Source: Leptospiraceae bacterium (GTDB lineage: Bacteria; Spirochaetota; Leptospiria; Turneriellales; Turneriellaceae). Taken from it: a stretch of 64,000 nucleotides of DNA. The notes under the pieces were generated by a model that worked only from the letters and a program-made list of their open reading frames with translations, was not told the DNA's origin and did no database searches. The position numbers and the translations under genes were made by a program. This document shows, piece after piece, positions 14,762-61,198 of this stretch; position 1 is the first letter of the stretch, and each line of letters starts with the position of its first letter. The DNA is taken from contig JANWWS010000049.1 of the NCBI GenBank assembly GCA_025055765.1, positions 1-64,000 of the forward strand. Reading direction: 5' to 3'.

Positions 14762-15421
14762 CTACACTCGCTGATAAAAAAGAAAGAATGTGGCAAGCCC
14801 TGCTCTACGAGCTTGCTCTTCGTAGTAGCTGACAAAGCGGCCTTCCACATGAGGCAGTATTACCCCCCTTCCATATTTATTGTGCCAGGCTGGATTTCCC
14901 TCCAAGTACCAAAACACCTCTTCTAGGTAGGGGTAAAAATCCGTAGCAAATTCCAATATCCCCCCTTTTTTTGTAATAAGAGTTAATTCCCCAAGAAAAC
15001 TAGCGGAGAAAAAACGGTGCTTATGGTGCCTTCTCTTAGGCCAGGGATCAGGGAAGTTAATGATAACTCGGGAAAACTGCTCTTGGCAAAAGAGATTTGC
15101 AAAAAACCAATTTATGTCTAAGATTAGCCAGCGAATGTTGGCGAGGCCAAGTTCTTTTTGACGGCGGATTGCCCTAAGCACCCTTTTTTTCTTCTTCTCT
15201 ATGGCCACATAAAAAATGCCGGGGTTTTTCCCTGCCTCGTGAAGTACAAACTCTCCCCACCCACTGCCTAGCTCAAGGGCATAGTCCTCGTATCCCGGGA
15301 AATTTCGAGAGAGATTGTATGGCGTCTCTTCCGGAGGAAAGCCGAGAGAGTACTCGCTTAGTTCGGCATTCTTGCGCTCTAGGATAGAGAAAAGCTTTTG
15401 TTGAATATCAGGTTGAATCAA
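14762..15421 (-). CDS. trmB: tRNA (guanine-N7-)-methyltransferase
   Basis: 219 residues; forms m7G46 in the variable loop of tRNAs. The SAM-binding motif is LELGSGWGEFVLHEAG near residue 32, and the family signature INFPDPWPKRRHHKHR is near residue 122-137, including the catalytic Asp and the basic tRNA-binding run. A second motif ATDFYPYLEEVF follows near 168. It is the last gene of the PASTA-rpe-gltX operon and overlaps the ATPase gene by 14 bases. It is convergent with the folK-panB gene with essentially no gap. Confidence 0.95.
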   Translation of the reverse strand: MIQPDIQQKLFSILERKNAELSEYSLGFPPEETPYNLSRNFPGYEDYALELGSGWGEFVLHEAGKNPGIFYVAIEKKKKRVLRAIRRQKELGLANIRWLILDINWFFANLFCQEQFSRVIINFPDPWPKRRHHKHRFFSASFLGELTLITKKGGILEFATDFYPYLEEVFWYLEGNPAWHNKYGRGVILPHVEGRFVSYYEEQARRAGLATFFLFYQRV

Positions 15422-16073
15422 GTTTGCTTTTAAATAAATAACGTACCGAAATTAAGGTCCCCACCGTAGAGCTTTCTAACTTTTGGCTAAATTTACCTTC
15501 GTCGTTGTGAAAAAGCACAATCATGAAATCAGCAAGTCCACTTACAATGCGCAGTCCTCTGCCAAAACGTGGGTGCTCTACCTCACGGCCGTGGATCTTT
15601 ACTTTGCGGATGAGCTCACCCCGGTATTTCTTGAGGCTTTCCATAAACTCGCTTAAATTTTCCCCATCGGGTAATTCCCGCTCAACTTGATTTAAATCAA
15701 AACCTCCACCATAGTCTAGTACACTGATTATTATGTGGTCACGCCCAAATTTGTAGCGCAATACCACATGCTCACTTATCCCCCGATTATAAGTTGCTAT
15801 GATAGCATTAGATAAGAGCTCATCGCAAATGAGGGATATTTCGTAGCATTCCTCTTCAGTTAGGTCCCAAGCATCGGCTTTGTTTTCCATGTATTCCCGC
15901 ACAACCGATACAGATGCCAAATCTGCCGGTACAAAGCAAATCCCCTCATGACCTTCCTTGCCTCGGGGAGGCCACTCGTAGAAATGGACATGAGCGTATT
16001 CACCGTGTTCCACTTTAGCAACTAGAACTCCCCAACGGGAGAAACCTATCGGAAACATTCCCATTCGTCTCAT
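15408..16073 (-). CDS. RsbW/SpoIIAB-like ATPase (GHKL anti-sigma or serine kinase)
   Basis: About 221 residues from ATG 16073, which overlaps the gltX stop as ATGA; a second ATG at 16064 sits better relative to GGGAGGAG. The GHKL motifs are visible: N-box ICDELLSNAIIATYNRG near residue 93, G1 box VLDYGGGFD near 128, and G2 box FGRGLRIVSGLADF near 178. The family binds ATP, sequesters a sigma factor or effector, and phosphorylates a STAS antagonist. The first 50 residues are extra and unrecognised. No sigma or STAS gene is adjacent, but STAS proteins occur at 26.5 and 59-60.6 kb of this window. Confidence 0.85.
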   Translation of the reverse strand: MRRMGMFPIGFSRWGVLVAKVEHGEYAHVHFYEWPPRGKEGHEGICFVPADLASVSVVREYMENKADAWDLTEEECYEISLICDELLSNAIIATYNRGISEHVVLRYKFGRDHIIISVLDYGGGFDLNQVERELPDGENLSEFMESLKKYRGELIRKVKIHGREVEHPRFGRGLRIVSGLADFMIVLFHNDEGKFSQKLESSTVGTLISVRYLFKSKLDST

Positions 16074-17647
16074 ACTCCTCCCAGACTTCCCGCAGGCCAC
16101 CGCTCTTTTGCCAATGCTATCGTTTTTCTCAGTGTCTCCTCTACCTTCTGATAGCCCAGGAGAGCTAAGTACTGGGGCAACTCCAAGCCCTCTTTTTTAC
16201 CCGTACAGGCAATCCTCAATGTCATGTAGAGGTTTTTTCCCTTATGCCCAGTGAGCCTGCCCGTCTCCGCTATTATGTTCTTTATGGCCTCTGCGGTAAA
16301 GTCCTCACCTCCTCTCTCTTTTATGAGACGGTGGAATGTTTCCGCTATTGACAAAAAATTTTGCGAAGAGATGATTTCCTCGGCAAAATCGTCAATTGTT
16401 TTTTCATCAAAATCTACAAAAAAGTCGGAAAGGTAGCGTAGGATCTGGCGATAGTAATCTAAATAAACCCGCAGCGCCAAAAGAATCTCTCGCAACCGCT
16501 CGTTCGCTATCTCCCCATGTGTTTTAGCGACAAAATCACTTTTCTGCACGAAGGGCATAACCTCCCTAAGATATTGTTCTTCGGGACAATGGCGTATGTG
16601 CAAATTAGATAGCCAGTTTAGTTTCGATTTGGGGAAAAGATAGTTTTCAAGCTCTTCCGTCTTTAGCGCACTAAGGTCTTGATCTGCGGCTTTTTCTAAA
16701 TCAAAGACATCAAACATGGCAGGACTTTTCGAGCATCTCTCAATATCAAAAATTCGGCAAAGCTCCTCCATGGTGCGGAACTCCTGCCCATCGGGAGGAG
16801 ACCAACCCAAAAGGGCCATGTAATTATTAAAGGCTCTTGCAGGATAGCCTAGGTCCCGAAAAGCGGTGATGGGGGTTGCTCCATGGCGTTTAGAAAGCTT
16901 TTTGTGATCGCTGCCCACAATTTCGCTCACATGAGCCCATTTAGGTTCCTGCCAGCCAAAAGCCTGGTAGAGGAGTATCTGGCGAGGGGTATTGGAGAGA
17001 TGTTGCACCCCTCGAATAACATGGCTAATTTCCATAAGGTGGTCATCCACAACTACGGCATAGTTATAAGAAGGGAAGCCATCCGACTTAATGATAATAA
17101 AATCGCCAATGAGGGAACTATCAAAATAGACCTGCCCCTGGACCAAATCATGTACCACAATTTTGCCGGGTGGGGTACGGAAGCGAATGGTGTACGAAAA
17201 CCCTGCCTCGATTTTTTTCTTTACCTCTTGGGAACTAAGATGGCGACATTTGCCATCATATATGGCGGGCAGGCCCATGGCCTCCCGCTGTGCCTTTTTA
17301 ATCTCTAATTCTTCTGAGGTGCAAAAACAAGGATAAGCCTTCCCTTCTTGAATGAGTCGCTCTGCATGCTCTCGGTATATGGGAAGCCTTTGTGATTGCC
17401 TATAGGGGCCATGGGGACCGCCCACTTCAGGTCCCTCATCCCAATTTAGACCAAGCCAACGTAGGGATTCTAAGACCTGAGCGTAACTCTCTTCCGTTGA
17501 ACGCTCTTGGTCGGTATCCTCAATGCGCAAGATAAATTTTCCCCCACGGGCACGGGCATAAAGGTAATTAAAAAGAGCCGTCCTGGCACCACCCACATGT
17601 AGGTAACCCGTGGGTGAAGGAGCAAAACGGGTTCGCACCTTATCCAT
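16070..17647 (-). CDS. gltX: Glutamyl-tRNA synthetase
   Basis: 525 residues, class I aminoacyl-tRNA synthetase that charges tRNA-Glu. The HIGH-type motif is APSPTGYLHVGGARTALFNY at the N-terminus and the KMSKS-type motif is DHKKLSKRHGATPI near residue 245. The C-terminal anticodon-binding helical domain is complete. Whether it is discriminating or also charges tRNA-Gln cannot be decided by eye. It lies 11 bases after the rpe gene (minus strand order) and shares a 4-base overlap with the ATPase gene. Confidence 0.97.
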   Translation of the reverse strand: MDKVRTRFAPSPTGYLHVGGARTALFNYLYARARGGKFILRIEDTDQERSTEESYAQVLESLRWLGLNWDEGPEVGGPHGPYRQSQRLPIYREHAERLIQEGKAYPCFCTSEELEIKKAQREAMGLPAIYDGKCRHLSSQEVKKKIEAGFSYTIRFRTPPGKIVVHDLVQGQVYFDSSLIGDFIIIKSDGFPSYNYAVVVDDHLMEISHVIRGVQHLSNTPRQILLYQAFGWQEPKWAHVSEIVGSDHKKLSKRHGATPITAFRDLGYPARAFNNYMALLGWSPPDGQEFRTMEELCRIFDIERCSKSPAMFDVFDLEKAADQDLSALKTEELENYLFPKSKLNWLSNLHIRHCPEEQYLREVMPFVQKSDFVAKTHGEIANERLREILLALRVYLDYYRQILRYLSDFFVDFDEKTIDDFAEEIISSQNFLSIAETFHRLIKERGGEDFTAEAIKNIIAETGRLTGHKGKNLYMTLRIACTGKKEGLELPQYLALLGYQKVEETLRKTIALAKERWPAGSLGGV

Positions 17648-52910: not shown

Positions 52911-54110
52911 TTATTTAAAGACCGACAACAGCCAGCCTATCACCTGGCCCATAATGGAGTGCTCAAGGAAATTCTTGATGTCAACGGGATCGCGGTTTAA
53001 GGAGTCGTAGAACCAAGCGGCATATTCATCCACAAGGGGTATATTCACCCTGTAGCGCGAGTTAATTGAGGCAATGAGCTCATTAGCAAGAACGGCATGC
53101 CCGTAGCGATTTGGATGTACCCCGTCTAGACTAAAGACCCCTGGCGCTCCCGGAAGTGGCCAATGCGCCCGCGCCAAGCCAGGAGAATACCCCGTACGGC
53201 TATCCCGAATAAGCCGGCCATTTGCCTTGATATTATCAAAAATAACCTTGGCATCGGTTACCGCAAAACCCATAGCAGAGCCCTGGGCCTTTACTTCATT
53301 GTTTAGCATCGTGAGAAAGTTTTCAATGACCCGCACTTCGTTCGCATCAAGGACTTGGTTTGGATCAGAAACTGACCTTCTGTAAAAGGCTTTTAAGCCT
53401 GTATAATTTGGCCTGTTTTGGGGATCGCGATAAGGCTCAAGATAGGCGATCGCTGTCACATTGGGTATAGTGAAGAGCACTCCTCCGCGCAAGCTCCCCA
53501 TCGCTCGTGCCCGACGCATGACCTCCGCAATATCGCGGCGAAACCGTGGTTCATCTAAACAAGACGTACTTGTGTGCAAGGCCGTGCAAAGCACATGATT
53601 TGCCGCTGCTGTACCAAAGAGAAAGGTAGGCCGATTACGTTCCACAATTTGCATTTGGGTACCAGCGTCCCTTAGGCCAAAACGATGGAACTTATCGGGC
53701 TCTTTACAAGTCGAGGCCGTGATATCTTCACAGCGGCCACTTGTGCGCAGTACGCTTGTGTACTGGGCTCCTGTGATACCTGCATGGGTCGGCAAGGCAT
53801 ATGTCCTTTCATTACCTCCAATAATTGCCGCGCCGATACAGATTGGCCCGCAATTACCCTTAAGTACATCTTCTAAGTTTACATACGGCCCCTTAAGCTC
53901 ATTGTAGTAAAGATTGGCTCCCGCTTGCTTCACTACGAGGACAGGATAGGCCCAATCCTGGGTTTTTTTCTCAACAATGACACCATAAAACCCCTGGGAA
54001 AGGCTATCCCCAATCACAACCGGCCTTTCAAAGAGAGAGGCGATTGTGTTTGCTAAGGCGACAGGAGCCACACACACTAAATTCACAAGCATGAAAAGCA
54101 GTTTCTTCAT
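52911..54110 (-). CDS. Secreted SGNH/GDSL hydrolase, tandem paralogue 1
   Basis: 399 residues from ATG 54110 (GGAGG 5 bases upstream), with a signal peptide ([20 protein letters not shown]). The GDSL motif is [13 protein letters not shown] near residue 33 with the nucleophile Ser, and the C-terminal block [19 protein letters not shown] near 336 gives the catalytic Asp-His pair. The middle motif [12 protein letters not shown] near 187 may be the block III Asn. Esterase, lipase or other acyl-hydrolase activity is expected; substrate unknown. It is about 85 percent identical by eye to the next gene upstream, minus a 24-residue insertion. Confidence 0.88.
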
Positions 54111-54185
54111 ATGCACCTCCTTAAATAGTAAATTTTCGGCGCGTTCGGTGCCATATTTCTTATAACATCGCCGACCGCGGCCGTT

Positions 54186-55451
54186 TTATGTAAACACCGA
54201 GATTAGCCAAGTAATGACTTGGCCAATAATGGTGTTTTCCAAAAAGTTCTTAATGTCTACAGGATTGCGATTTAACGAGTCATAGAACCAGGCGCTGTAT
54301 TCATCCACCGCAGGGATATTCACCCCATAGCGGCTATTTATGGCAGCAATGAGCTCGTTAGCAAGAACCGCGTGGCCGTATCGGTTCGGATGTACCCCGT
54401 CTAGGCTAAAGACGCCAGGGGCTCCAGGAAGTGGCCAATGCGCCCGCGCCAAGCCAGGAGAATATCCCGTACGGCTATCCCGAATGAGCCTGCCGTTTGC
54501 CCTGATGTTATCGAAAATAACCTTGGCATCGCTCACCGCAAAGCCCATGGCAGCTCCCTGGGCCTTGACCTCATTGTTGAGCATGGTCAGGAAGTTTTCA
54601 ATTACCCTCACCTCGTTGGCATCCAACACTTGGTTCGGATCTGAAACAGAACGCCGATAGAAAGGCTTAAGTCCGGTATAGTTAGGACGGTTTTGCGGAT
54701 CCCGATAGGGCTCAAGGTAGGCGATAGCCGTCACATTGGGAATTGTAAAGAGCACTCCTCCTCGGATAGTTCCTATTGCTCGGGCGCGCCGCATCACTTC
54801 AGCGATGTCCCGCTTAAAGCGTGCCTCATCTAGACATGATAGACTTGTGTGTAACGCCGTGCAAAGAACATGGTTGGCCGCAGCTGTTCCAAATAAAAAG
54901 GTAGGGCGGTTTTTCTCCACAATTTCCATTTGGGTACCAGCGTCTCTTAAGCCAAAACGATGGAACTTATCAGGCTCCTTACAATCGGGAACCTGGACCC
55001 ACCGATACGTAAAGGTATACCAGTTCTTCCAGTACCATTGCTTTTCCCATTTAGTGGCGGTTATGTCTTCGCATTTCCCACTGGTACGTAGGACACTTGT
55101 GTATTCAGCACCCGTTATGCCTGCATGGGTAGGAAGGGAATAGGTTCTTTCATTACCCCCAATTACCGATGCCCCAATGCAAATAGGGCCACAATTTCCT
55201 TTCAGCACTTCTTCTAAGTTAACATAGGGACCCTTTAGCTCGTTGTAATAGACCTGAGAACCTGCTTGTTTTACAACAAGTACCGGGTATGCCCAGTCTT
55301 GGGTTTTTTTCTCCACCGTTACCCCAAAAAAACCTTGAGACAGGGAATCCCCAATGACCACTGGTTTTTGAAAGAGCTGGGCTACACTAGTAGCAAAAGC
55401 TCCCCCTGCTATCGTAACAAAAAGCAATATCCCCTTAAAAAATGCCTTCAT
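54186..55451 (-). CDS. Secreted SGNH/GDSL hydrolase, tandem paralogue 2 with Trp-rich insertion
   Basis: 421 residues from ATG 55451, chosen because GGGAGGAG precedes it. Signal peptide [20 protein letters not shown]. The same motifs as its neighbour are present: [13 protein letters not shown] near 34, [12 protein letters not shown], and [19 protein letters not shown] near 358. Relative to paralogue 1 it carries an insertion (near residue 130-155) rich in Trp and Lys ([18 protein letters not shown]) followed by VQVPD, just before the shared [12 protein letters not shown]. The two genes are adjacent head-to-tail, 75 bases apart, so a recent duplication is evident. The insertion could bind carbohydrate or membrane; this is inference. 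Confidence 0.88.
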
Positions 55452-55551
55452 ATTCTCCTCCCGTACCCAAAAATTGGCACAATTTTTTGTATCATTGTAA
55501 TTATGTCCTAGAAAAGAGACGGGGGCCAATTTTTCTTTGGTAGCTCAAAAT

Positions 55552-56517
55552 ATGGTGAAAAAGGATCGGCGGCCAGGTAAAATTTTTCTTAACCTAGGTG
55601 GGGGTGCGGCCCGGGGTTTTGCTCATATTGGGGTGCTTTCCGCCCTTCGGGAGGCTCAAATCCCCTTTGATTGCTTAGTGGGTGTCTCTATGGGAGCCAT
55701 TGTAGCCAGTGTTTACGCGGTAAACCCCGATGTGGAATATACAAAGGATCGAGTGGTCGCCTTAGCCTTGTCGCGCAAATTCCAAGAATCGCCCATTGGC
55801 ACCTGGACACGTCGTACCAATGAGTCGCAGCGTAGCTTTTTTCAAAGGCTAAAGAATCTTTATACGAACACCAATCTTGTCCGCCGCTTCTTTCTTTCTT
55901 CAGGGATTCTGGAAGAAGAACAAATTAACGAAGTTCTCTATCCCTTTATACCCGACATTGCCATTGGCACCGCAAGAATTCCTCTTTATATCGTGGCCGT
56001 GGATTTATTATCCGGGACAAGCCGGATCTTTCAGGGAAAGGATAGGCTACGCGATGCGGTAATCGCCTCTGCCTCCATGCCCATGGTGTTCCCCCCAAGG
56101 CAAATTGAAGGCCGTTTCTATTCCGATGGGGGAGTTCTCGATAAAATTGGTGTCGACGCCGCAGAAAGTCTTGGCGCTGAGTTTATTATCGCTGTGGATG
56201 TCTCCGATGAGAAACTACCAGAGGCAAGGCTGCGCAGTGGGCTTGATGTCATGCTACGTACCGAAGAAATAGCCTCTCTTTATCGGCGCCAATACCAGCT
56301 AAAAAGGGCTGATGTCGTCATCCAGCCCATAAGGGGCAACATCCACTGGGCCGACTACGGCAAGTACCGGGAAATAATGGATATGGGCTACGAAGCCACA
56401 AGAGCCAAAATAGAGGAACTGAGGCACAAACTGAAGTTACTGAACCTCAGGCGCCGCTTTTTTTTGGGGGGATTTTCCACCCGCCGAACGAAGTTGCGTC
56501 GCCTGCTCCAAGGCTAA
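55552..56517 (+). CDS. Patatin-like phospholipase
   Basis: About 321 residues from ATG 55552 (an upstream TTG at 55537 is possible); no good ribosome-binding site. The oxyanion motif is LGGGAARGFAHIGVLSAL near 16-33, the nucleophile elbow is GVSMGAIVAS near 47 (G-x-S-x-G), and the catalytic Asp is in YSDGGVLDKIG near 193 (DGG). No signal peptide, so it acts in the cytoplasm or at the membrane face. RssA/YchK-like members hydrolyse phospholipids or lysophospholipids. The 3' end overlaps the convergent waaA gene by 81 bases. Confidence 0.93.
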   Translation: MVKKDRRPGKIFLNLGGGAARGFAHIGVLSALREAQIPFDCLVGVSMGAIVASVYAVNPDVEYTKDRVVALALSRKFQESPIGTWTRRTNESQRSFFQRLKNLYTNTNLVRRFFLSSGILEEEQINEVLYPFIPDIAIGTARIPLYIVAVDLLSGTSRIFQGKDRLRDAVIASASMPMVFPPRQIEGRFYSDGGVLDKIGVDAAESLGAEFIIAVDVSDEKLPEARLRSGLDVMLRTEEIASLYRRQYQLKRADVVIQPIRGNIHWADYGKYREIMDMGYEATRAKIEELRHKLKLLNLRRRFFLGGFSTRRTKLRRLLQG

Positions 56518-57745: not shown

Positions 57746-58018
57746 CTAGCGCTTTATAGCAAAGGGGAAGGGAAGGTCCTCACCAGCTATGTCTTTGACT
57801 TGAATTTCGCTAACCCGCGCAAGAGGGGGTCCCTCGCGGAGTCTCTCGTAAAAACGTGACAACACTTCTTCACTACCCTGCGCAACACATTCCACCGAGC
57901 CATCAGGTAGATTTCGTACATAACCGGACAATTTGAGGCTCTGAGCTACGCTTTGTGCAAAAGCCCGATAGCCCACCCCCTGCACTATGCCAAAAATGAG
58001 GTACTTACGGGTTAACAT
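57746..58018 (-). CDS. acyP: Acylphosphatase
   Basis: 90 residues from ATG 58018. The family signature is full: LIFGIVQGVGYRAFAQSVA near residue 8-26 (catalytic Arg) and LSGYVRNLPDGSVECVAQG near 30-48 (catalytic Asn). Hydrolyses acyl phosphates such as carbamoyl phosphate. The start overlaps the pdhA 3' end by 14 bases and the stop lies one base before the waaA start. Confidence 0.95.
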   Translation of the reverse strand: MLTRKYLIFGIVQGVGYRAFAQSVAQSLKLSGYVRNLPDGSVECVAQGSEEVLSRFYERLREGPPLARVSEIQVKDIAGEDLPFPFAIKR

Positions 58019-58970
58019 ATGTATACTGATGCAATAGAGATACAGGGGGAAAGTCTGAACTTTCCGCAAAGGCAACGGCGTCGTCCACAATTTCCTTCAC
58101 TTTTTTTTGGATTTCTTCTAATTCTGTTGTAGGAATTCCTTCTTCAAGCAAGGTTTTGGCACACAACTCTATGGCGTCTAGCTCTTTCTTGCGCTCCAAT
58201 TCGCTAGGAGGTCGATACTTCGCTGGGTCCGACATAGAATGCCCTCGGTAACGATAGGTAACCGCCTCAATTAGGGTAGGCTCATTTTGACTACGGGCCC
58301 GGTTCACCGCCTCGCGTACCACTTCATGAAATTCCCAGACATCATAGGTCTCGACACGCACACTGTGCATACCATAGCTTTTGCCCTTGACAGATATATC
58401 TTCCAAGGGAAGATGCCGATAGAGAGGGGTACCCATGGAATATAAGTTGTTTTCTACGATAAAGACCACGGGCAAATTCCATAGGGCAGCAAAAGTTAAA
58501 CCTTCATGGAAACCTCCAATATTCACGGCGCCATCCCCCATAAAGCAAAGGGTAACAGCCCTTTCCCTTTTGTAGCGGCTTCCAAAGGCAATCCCACAGG
58601 CAATGGGGATATGTCCCCCTACAATCCCATGCCCACCCATAAAATGCCGGGCTCTATCAAAAAAATGCATACTGCCCCCTAGACCCTTACTACACCCAGT
58701 TACCTTACCATAGAGCTCCGCCATGCACTCGCGGGCCGATAAACCCCGGGCTAAGGCATGGCCATGATCTCGATAGGTGCTTACGACATAATCTTGTTTT
58801 TCTAGGGCTCCCATCGCCCCCACAGCGACAGCCTCTTGCCCAATGTAGAGGTGGCAGAAACCCTTAATTTTCCCCAAGGCATACGCTTTCGCTGCCGCCT
58901 CTTCGAAGCGACGAATAAGCAGCATTTGCTCATAAAAAACAAGTAGTTTTTTAATTTTTACCGATGGCAC
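58005..58970 (-). CDS. pdhA: Pyruvate dehydrogenase E1 component, alpha subunit
   Basis: 321 residues, thiamine-diphosphate-dependent 2-oxo acid decarboxylase subunit. Motifs: RRFEEAAAKAYALGKIKGF near 20, LYIGQEAVAVGAMGAL near 41, GSMHFFD near 97, GGHGIVGGHIPIACGIAFG near 107, and the TPP-binding motif GDGAVNIGGFHEGLTFAA near 142 followed by FIVENNLYSMGT. The loop TYRYRGHSMSDPAKYR near 240 is the phosphorylation-loop equivalent. The beta subunit and E2 genes are not next to it in the window; a role in a related dehydrogenase such as acetoin dehydrogenase is possible. Confidence 0.93.
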   Translation of the reverse strand: MPSVKIKKLLVFYEQMLLIRRFEEAAAKAYALGKIKGFCHLYIGQEAVAVGAMGALEKQDYVVSTYRDHGHALARGLSARECMAELYGKVTGCSKGLGGSMHFFDRARHFMGGHGIVGGHIPIACGIAFGSRYKRERAVTLCFMGDGAVNIGGFHEGLTFAALWNLPVVFIVENNLYSMGTPLYRHLPLEDISVKGKSYGMHSVRVETYDVWEFHEVVREAVNRARSQNEPTLIEAVTYRYRGHSMSDPAKYRPPSELERKKELDAIELCAKTLLEEGIPTTELEEIQKKVKEIVDDAVAFAESSDFPPVSLLHQYTYVNP

Positions 58971-59060: not shown

Positions 59061-60641
59061 ATGAAGGTTGAAGCACTGTGGGAATATCCGTCTGTCCCAG
59101 GGAAAACAGAAAGTTTAAACCACCTTTTGATAAGGTTAAGTTCTCCTCCCGATTTGGGACAGAAAAACCGGCTTCCTGTTGTGGTAATTCTCGTACTTGA
59201 CCGCTCCTGGTCCATGAAAGGTGACAAGCTTAAGGCTACCCTAGATGCCGCAAGTAGTTTTGTCAACTGGCTAACCCGCTATGACTATATTGGTGTGGTT
59301 GCCTATGGCTCCGATGTGCGGGTTGTGCAGCCTGTGGTGCGCCTTGGCGAAAAAGCGTCTATTGTCAACCGAATCCAGACACTTACAGCGGAAGGTTCAA
59401 CAAACCTCAGTGGGGGCTGGCTTCAGGGACTTAAAATGGCCCAAGAAATTCAAAAAGAAATTGGACCATGCGTTCGCCGGGTGCTTCTCTTAACCGACGG
59501 AAATGCAAACTTGGGCATTGTGGATCCAGAACAATTACGTCAAATTGCGGAAAACCACAAGGAAATGGGGATTTCCACAACAACTATTGGCTTTGGCACT
59601 GATTTCAACGAAATGGTGCTTAAAGACATTGCTCAGGCGGGTCATGGAAATTTTTATTTTATTGAGTCCCCAGAGGAAACCTCAGAGGTATTTTTTAAAG
59701 AATTTGGTGAGGTAGGCTCTCTTTACGCACAGACAACGGAGCTAAAGATTAAATTTCCGCCACAAGTACGCTTTCTTGAGCTTTTGACGGACGCACCTCA
59801 TCATTACCAGGACCAAGAACTACAAATTGAGGTGGGGGATATGCGCTCGGATGACCAGCGCACATTTGTCATGGAAACAGCTGTGCATCCTGAAGAAGAA
59901 AATTTGGAGCTCGACATTGAGCTAAACTATTATGAGGTCACCCAAAACATGGCGCTCAGAGATACTCGAACTCGGATTACATTACCAGTTGGTCAAGAAT
60001 CATCTCCCAATCCGGAAGTTACTTCAGAAATTGCCATTGCCTGGGCTGGCAAAACCATGATGCAGGCCGCTAAAATGGCGGAAACAGATGTTACGGGGGC
60101 TCTCGAGCTCTTAAATAATATGGTGCAACGTCTATACGAGGCAAAGACGGCCCAAAATGCCGAGGTTATGAGTTCTTTGATTATGCGCCTCGAAGAGATG
60201 CAAAAGCGTCTCAGAGAAGACAGCAATTTAGGGCGTAAATTCCTTGTAGCAGGCGGCTTTACCCTCTATCAAGACAAAGGAGATTTTCTACCGTTTCGCG
60301 ACATTGAGATGCACGACCGCATACACGAACTAAGCCACAAGGGTGATTTAGATTTGTATAATTCCCCTGAGTTACGCCAAAATGTTTACAACAAAATGCT
60401 TGAGGGCTACCGCTATTTCATTTTCGATATGTCGGAAGTCAGCTATGTGGATTCCTCCGCGGTGGGAGCTCTCATACAAGCAGCTAGCTGGGTAAACCGT
60501 CGGGGAGGGCTCTTTGTGGTGGCTAATTTAACCTCGACTGTGGAAAAACTCTTCCAGATGACCCGGCTCAATACTTTCATACCAGTTGCTGAATCCGTGA
60601 ACGAGGCCAAGCAGATGATTGAAGCAAGACAACGCCGCTAG
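59061..60641 (+). CDS. VWA-domain protein fused to a C-terminal STAS domain
   Basis: 526 residues, no signal peptide or TM helix, so cytoplasmic. Residues about 30-215 form a von Willebrand A domain with an intact MIDAS: VLDRSWSMKGD (D-x-S-x-S) near 46, TLTAEGSTNLSGGW near 108 and LLTDGNANLG near 146. A beta-sandwich region (about 220-320), as in VWA-containing calcium-activated channel homologues, and a helical linker (330-400) follow. The last 115 residues are a STAS domain: SHKGDLDLYNSPELRQ, FDMSEVSYVDSSAVGALIQA near 455 with the DSS phosphorylation motif, and TSTVEKLFQMTRLN near 495. I know no described protein of this architecture. It suggests a partner-switching or signalling scaffold. 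Confidence 0.9.
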   Translation: MKVEALWEYPSVPGKTESLNHLLIRLSSPPDLGQKNRLPVVVILVLDRSWSMKGDKLKATLDAASSFVNWLTRYDYIGVVAYGSDVRVVQPVVRLGEKASIVNRIQTLTAEGSTNLSGGWLQGLKMAQEIQKEIGPCVRRVLLLTDGNANLGIVDPEQLRQIAENHKEMGISTTTIGFGTDFNEMVLKDIAQAGHGNFYFIESPEETSEVFFKEFGEVGSLYAQTTELKIKFPPQVRFLELLTDAPHHYQDQELQIEVGDMRSDDQRTFVMETAVHPEEENLELDIELNYYEVTQNMALRDTRTRITLPVGQESSPNPEVTSEIAIAWAGKTMMQAAKMAETDVTGALELLNNMVQRLYEAKTAQNAEVMSSLIMRLEEMQKRLREDSNLGRKFLVAGGFTLYQDKGDFLPFRDIEMHDRIHELSHKGDLDLYNSPELRQNVYNKMLEGYRYFIFDMSEVSYVDSSAVGALIQAASWVNRRGGLFVVANLTSTVEKLFQMTRLNTFIPVAESVNEAKQMIEARQRR

Positions 60642-61198
60642 TTTTGCTCTTTCCACTTAATGCTACAGCCAACACAGGGTTTCTGTATTTCAGGGGGGGA
60701 TTTCCCCTCTAGTAGAGAGTCTAAGGCCAAGCGCAGAGACGCACCGGTTATAGGAACATTATTGCCTGGCCTCGCATCATCAAGTTGGCCATGATAGTAT
60801 AGTCTTAGATAGCCATCAAAAACAAAAATATCGGGGGTACAGGCGGCCTGGTAGTCGCGCGCAACCTCCTGTGTTTCATCGTAAAAATATGGGAAAGGAA
60901 ATCCAAATTCCTGGGCCACCTGCTTCATTTTTTCTGGGGAATCCTCGGGATAGCGCTCTACATCATTAGAACTTATGGCGGCAAAACCAATTCCCTTCGG
61001 CATGTAATCTTGGGCAACTTTTACAAGCTCCTGGCGTACATGAATCACATAGGGGCAATGATTACAGATAAAATAAATGACCATGCCCTTAGGACCGCGT
61101 ACGTGGTTCATAGTATACTTTATCCCCGAAACCACATCCCGAAGACAAAAATAAGGAGCGATTGTTCCCAAAGGTAGGCTTTTGGATTCTACCGCCAT
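60638..61198 (-). CDS. Thioredoxin-fold (redoxin/peroxiredoxin-like) protein
   Basis: 186 residues. The active-site motif is FICNHCPYVIHV near residue 44 (C-x-x-C, CNHC), preceded by an AhpC/TSA-like N-terminus (LGTIAPYFCLRDVVSG). Further features are AISSNDVERYPEDSPEKM and FDGYLRLYYHGQLDDARPG; two Cys pairs (QKPCVGCSIKW) lie at the C-terminus. This family of thioredoxin-like proteins acts as thiol oxidoreductases of unknown substrate. There is no signal peptide. It follows the aldo-keto reductase gene on the minus strand by one base, so they form one operon. The convergent VWA-STAS gene overlaps by 4 bases. Confidence 0.9.
   Translation of the reverse strand: MAVESKSLPLGTIAPYFCLRDVVSGIKYTMNHVRGPKGMVIYFICNHCPYVIHVRQELVKVAQDYMPKGIGFAAISSNDVERYPEDSPEKMKQVAQEFGFPFPYFYDETQEVARDYQAACTPDIFVFDGYLRLYYHGQLDDARPGNNVPITGASLRLALDSLLEGKSPPEIQKPCVGCSIKWKEQN

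Follow-up and report, generated by a model that had tools for sequence, protein, structure and literature searches.

A conserved protein of the Leptospirae with a predicted ArnB/Sec23-24-type core and a C-terminal STAS domain

The question raised by this locus is what a VWA domain and a STAS domain do in one and the same protein and whether the first takes part in the phospho-switch that the second suggests. The window, i.e. the whole stretch of DNA that was analysed, comprises 64,000 nucleotides. We refer to the gene and its product as VWA-STAS. By layout the gene is monocistronic: the preceding gene (58005-58970, E1 dehydrogenase by Pfam) is divergent from it and the following one (60638-61198, AhpC/TSA family by Pfam) is convergent with it. 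The features are as follows.

59061..60641, + strand: VWA-STAS gene, ATG to stop, 526 aa
59064..59141, + strand: N-terminal strands of the beta-sandwich, residues 2-27 (model)
59184..59690, + strand: VWA domain, residues 42-210 (Pfam PF00092, E 9.3e-20, far above the curated cut-off)
59199..59213, + strand: MIDAS DxSxS, residues D47-S51 (D47, S49 and S51 invariant, 31/31)
59400..59402, + strand: MIDAS T114 (invariant, 31/31)
59496..59498, + strand: MIDAS D146 (invariant, 31/31)
59721..59990, + strand: remainder of the beta-sandwich, residues 221-310 (model)
60012..60272, + strand: four-helix bundle, residues 318-404 (model), corresponding to the regulatory helical bundle of ArnB
60303..60608, + strand: STAS domain, residues 415-516 (Pfam PF01740, E 1.6e-19; TIGR00377 over cut-off)
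60450..60458, + strand: D464-S465-S466 motif of the STAS domain (invariant, 31/31)

The first-pass annotation had placed a VWA domain with an intact MIDAS and a C-terminal STAS domain in one chain, and the Pfam matches listed above bear this out. The C-terminal region was checked for its identity and is indeed a STAS domain: it reached 70.1 bits against PF01740 (cut-off 22.6) and 71.1 bits against the NCBIfam model ant_ant_sig TIGR00377 (cut-off 53.45), which assigns it to the anti-sigma-antagonist class. The proposed cytoplasmic location is reasonable because the sequence shows neither a signal peptide or other export signal nor a membrane segment.

The expected phosphorylation motif is present as D-S-S, with its serines at 465/466 rather than near residue 457. 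We took S465 as the acceptor position based on the alignment with RsbV and SpoIIAA (6m36, 1th8). A serine is also found at this position in each of the 14 stand-alone STAS domains that the genome encodes, so its conservation alone is no proof of phosphorylation; the full D-S-S is found in only 6 of the 14. In RsbV and SpoIIAA the phosphorylated residues are Ser56 and Ser58. Taken at the level of sequence, the conservation of S465 and of D-S-S favours a working switch. In another locus (L129:1384-2150, + strand) an RsbW-like ATPase gene is directly followed by that of a STAS protein in which D-S-S is changed to N-S-L.

To describe the part before the STAS domain we used an AlphaFold model built with 28 aligned sequences (mean pLDDT 86.6, pTM 0.76). 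In the model the VWA domain is nested between the N-terminal strands and the rest of the beta-sandwich, followed by the four-helix bundle and then the STAS domain. The best Foldseek match in the PDB was ArnB (8s05, E 5e-24, TM 0.74 by target length), followed by a VWA protein of Catenulispora acidiphila (4fx5, TM 0.71), ArnE/vWA2 (5a8j, TM 0.70, both again by target length) and thereafter inter-alpha-inhibitor and Sec23/24. ArnE and ArnB have the same tripartite build (PMC6509490, PMC12852372), the topology of the N-terminal sandwich strands matches that of ArnE/vWA2 (PMC6509490) and the likeness of ArnB to Sec23/24 was pointed out by the authors of the 2026 paper (PMC12852372). With the nested VWA domain, the bundle behind the sandwich and the intact MIDAS, the model thus shows that the part before STAS is an ArnB/Sec23-24-type core and more than a VWA domain plus a sandwich. 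The beta-sandwich of the first-pass annotation is therefore retained, the four-helix bundle between it and STAS had been missed and the view of the VWA domain as a stand-alone, adhesion-type module is superseded. In ArnB phosphorylation of the helical bundle acts as the switch and lets the bundle bind ArnA through the latter's FHA domain (PMC6509490, PMC12852372).

VWA-STAS is present in 32 of 48 genomes of the class Leptospirae, mostly as a single copy, and those of its nearest relatives that come from named records belong largely to Leptospiraceae and Leptospirales. The five MIDAS residues and D464-S465-S466 are both invariant in the 31 aligned sequences. The genome of the window encodes one paralogue elsewhere (37% identity). 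Outside the class we found no full-length match in a sample of 296 Spirochaetota genomes, six of which contain matches to the core only. The plasmids and phages searched gave no full-length relative either, and a mobile origin was rejected on these grounds; an anti-phage system was likewise rejected, as VWA-STAS has no PADLOC match.

The most informative relatives are those with the same core and a different C-terminus. Among 50 more distant relatives, no other C-terminal signalling domain was recognised in 39, a bare form that occurs in many phyla, and ten, all from Chloroflexi, end in an FHA domain. The remaining one, from Riflebacteria, continues after the core with a HATPase_c_2 domain of the RsbW kinase type (E 8e-15) and a STAS domain in a single ORF of 713 aa. 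Three further proteins of this kind were found in two more Riflebacterial genomes, giving four in total.

L074:4706-6844; L156:1501-3657; L157:1480-3627 (- strand); L163:1480-3621 (- strand): Riflebacterial single chain of core, RsbW-like HATPase and STAS
L077, L079, L084, L086, L096, L097, L099, L100, L101, L109: Chloroflexi core with C-terminal FHA domain

Most of the four Riflebacterial copies carry kinase-type motifs and D-S-S; in one of them the STAS domain is decayed, another seems to have a changed kinase site, and one HATPase_c_2 domain scored 27.1 bits, just below the cut-off of 27.4. We found no description of such chains. They are the best evidence that the core works in RsbW-type partner switching, and they strengthen the earlier suggestion that the STAS domain of the window is a likely phospho-switch. 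We restricted a tree of the core to the first 400 residues, so that STAS, FHA and the larger part of the kinase domain were left out. In this tree a branch with support 99/97 separated the four kinase-STAS and 19 VWA-STAS proteins from the FHA and bare forms. In a tree of the STAS domains alone, which has long branches, the STAS domain of one Riflebacterial chain grouped with a stand-alone Riflebacterial STAS domain (96/93), and the two STAS fusions, in Leptospirae and in Riflebacteria, may therefore be independent.

The genome of the window has 10 HATPase_c_2 and 23 SpoIIE matches, from which we conclude that a partner-switching network exists in it, and none of these is linked to the VWA-STAS gene. 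Across 28 Leptospirae loci with 353 neighbouring ORFs we counted kinase, PP2C and STAS genes and obtained seven (three PP2C, one kinase, three STAS). About 7 are expected by chance from the genome-wide frequency at roughly 2,300 genes, so there are no conserved partner-switch neighbours above chance. Two single loci are suggestive: in L046 a PP2C-kinase-STAS run lies about 3-7 kb upstream of VWA-STAS, and in L069 a gene for a HAMP-SpoIIE-TPR protein is divergent to the VWA-STAS paralogue. Two pairings had been anticipated by the first-pass annotation. The first, with AAA+ ATPases, finds no counterpart here, as no such gene, MoxR included, is adjacent. The second named the following gene as the cognate kinase:

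15408..16100, - strand: RsbW-like HATPase_c_2 protein beside gltX

Of the 32 genomes with VWA-STAS 13 encode this ATPase, compared with 6 of the 16 without VWA-STAS; family f6, with 19 VWA-STAS genomes, lacks it in all of them. It does not co-occur with VWA-STAS and was therefore rejected as a dedicated partner, but may be among several kinases that act on VWA-STAS in its own genome. A small HMM of the Riflebacterial kinase domain, run against the kinases of this genome, gave four candidates at 12-17 bits and no winner. The same genome also encodes a protein that resembles a response-regulator receiver fused to an RsbW-like ATPase domain (L127:1483-2382, - strand).

Based on the domains, the predicted fold, the invariant motifs and the kinase-STAS chains of relatives we regard VWA-STAS, with modest confidence, as probably a cytoplasmic adaptor whose core is joined to an S465 phospho-switch STAS domain tied to RsbW-type partner switching. 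Phosphorylation, metal-dependent ligand binding, the direction of control and the output are what we infer, as follows. The core would bind a protein partner via its metal site or its surface and present the C-terminal RsbV/SpoIIAA-type STAS domain. S465 would be phosphorylated by an RsbW-type kinase of the cell, and a SpoIIE-type (PP2C) phosphatase would take the phosphate off. Only one phosphorylation state of STAS would bind the kinase, and the state of the scaffold would therefore be tied to the partner-switching network of the cell, through which the output would reach a sigma factor or some other target of the kinase.

Three other explanations have to be weighed. A chance fusion or an assembly artefact without function could be argued from one genome (G025), in which VWA-STAS is represented by two ORFs with a break near residue 210 (L072:10001-11537), reflecting a frameshift, a split gene or an assembly error. 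The gene is full-length in all other carriers, however, and this together with its retention in 32 of 48 genomes excludes chance; with the motifs invariant as well, we give this explanation next to no weight. A role in the envelope is suggested by family f6, where VWA-STAS lies between the gene of an exported TPR protein upstream and that of the following protein downstream, often with gaps of 18-40 bp:

L053-L066, L070, L071, L076 (family f6): conserved, strand-rich exported protein of ~600 aa without a Pfam match, downstream of VWA-STAS

This gene is co-directional in 16 loci and follows directly in all of them except L059. In such an apparent operon VWA-STAS would regulate or help to assemble the exported TPR protein and the strand-rich protein, perhaps an outer-membrane barrel. 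The ~600-aa gene has no match, however, in the genome of the window or elsewhere in its family or order, where VWA-STAS is nevertheless present; VWA-STAS itself has no export signal, and the neighbour was modelled with low confidence (pLDDT 42.8), too poorly for its fold to be used. We therefore consider an envelope role improbable.

The remaining explanation, which we find unlikely though less so than the envelope role, is that STAS serves for docking and has no phospho-switch; it would pack on the helix bundle or on a partner like the gelsolin domain in Sec23/24, or act as do STAS domains with no part in sigma control, such as MlaB. It would fit the arrangement of a helical bundle plus a C-terminal domain in Sec23/24 (PMC12852372) and the fact that kinase or phosphatase genes are not linked to VWA-STAS. 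It has to be set against a STAS score over the curated anti-sigma-antagonist cut-off, an invariant D-S-S and an RsbW-like kinase domain fused in relatives.

Other genomic contexts vary with lineage. Three relatives in the window's own family have a RelA/SpoT-type gene directly upstream and co-directional (L046:7774-9879, L047:7904-9958, L067:7761-9818), an arrangement that the window itself does not show. A MerR-type regulator gene is directly upstream of the bare-core gene in L083, L089, L090, L104, L112 and L121, i.e. in relatives without STAS from Chloroflexi and Rubrobacter; in L083 and L121 clpP lies beside this pair, with the bare-core gene before clpP. The f6, RelA/SpoT and MerR/clpP contexts are compatible with a stress or growth regulator, but are lineage-dependent. 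In the window we also noticed two adjacent, highly similar genes with signal-peptide-like starts (52911-55529, - strand), the first of which weakly matches GDSL lipase; a patatin-like gene (55537-56517) follows on the opposite strand.

If the phospho-switch adaptor described above holds, VWA-STAS connects two fields of signalling that have been treated apart. One is the RsbW/RsbV partner switching of bacteria; the other is that of VWA scaffolds switched by phosphorylation, represented by ArnB in archaea and sharing their fold with eukaryotic Sec23/24. One and the same core ends in nothing further, in FHA, in STAS or in a kinase plus STAS, a natural experiment which hints that the core presents a phospho-dependent module. 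More tentatively, the core could be an old adaptor that bacteria repeatedly coupled to C-terminal phospho-dependent modules (FHA, STAS, kinase plus STAS). Such proteins would form a separate class of partner-switch input/output protein, in which the ligand of the VWA metal site decides whether STAS titrates an RsbW-type kinase; we think of this generalisation as possible and rather doubtful. For structural studies the Riflebacterial single chain offers a compact target, and genetics could be done in cultured, non-pathogenic spirochaetes of the class. The view that the architecture is undescribed agrees with a search of 5.39 million open-access papers, in which we found no description of it; absence there is no proof that none exists.

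Among known systems, RsbV and SpoIIAA share the STAS domain with a D-S-(S/T) motif and are among the best PDB sequence matches. They are single-domain proteins encoded with a kinase and a sigma factor, whereas here STAS is the C-terminal domain of a 526-aa protein without such neighbours. The RsbR stressosome proteins and multi-domain chains such as Rv1364c, in which kinase and STAS are joined, resemble VWA-STAS in having an input domain before a C-terminal STAS domain. The input domains of these multi-domain proteins are globin-like, PAS or PP2C, and to our knowledge none is a VWA or ArnB-type core. MoxR-vWA ternary and other vWA conflict systems likewise have a MIDAS VWA domain in a multi-domain protein, but pair with MoxR AAA+ ATPases (PMC7159879), whereas VWA-STAS lacks both an adjacent one and a PADLOC match. 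The Sec23/Sec24 core of COPII has the same order of VWA, sandwich, helical domain and C-terminal domain (PMC12852372); there the last domain is gelsolin-like, the function is that of a eukaryotic coat and a phospho-acceptor STAS domain is missing. The closest comparison is with ArnB/ArnE (vWA2) of Sulfolobus, which at about 16% identity share the VWA domain inserted in a beta-sandwich, the C-terminal four-helix bundle and the intact MIDAS (PMC6509490, PMC12852372). That ArnB works by Ser/Thr phosphorylation is a further likeness. The chain of ArnB carries no additional domain at its C-terminus, the FHA partner ArnA being a separate protein; the Chloroflexi core-FHA chains resemble a fusion of ArnB with the FHA domain of ArnA, and VWA-STAS carries a fused STAS domain at the same end of the core.
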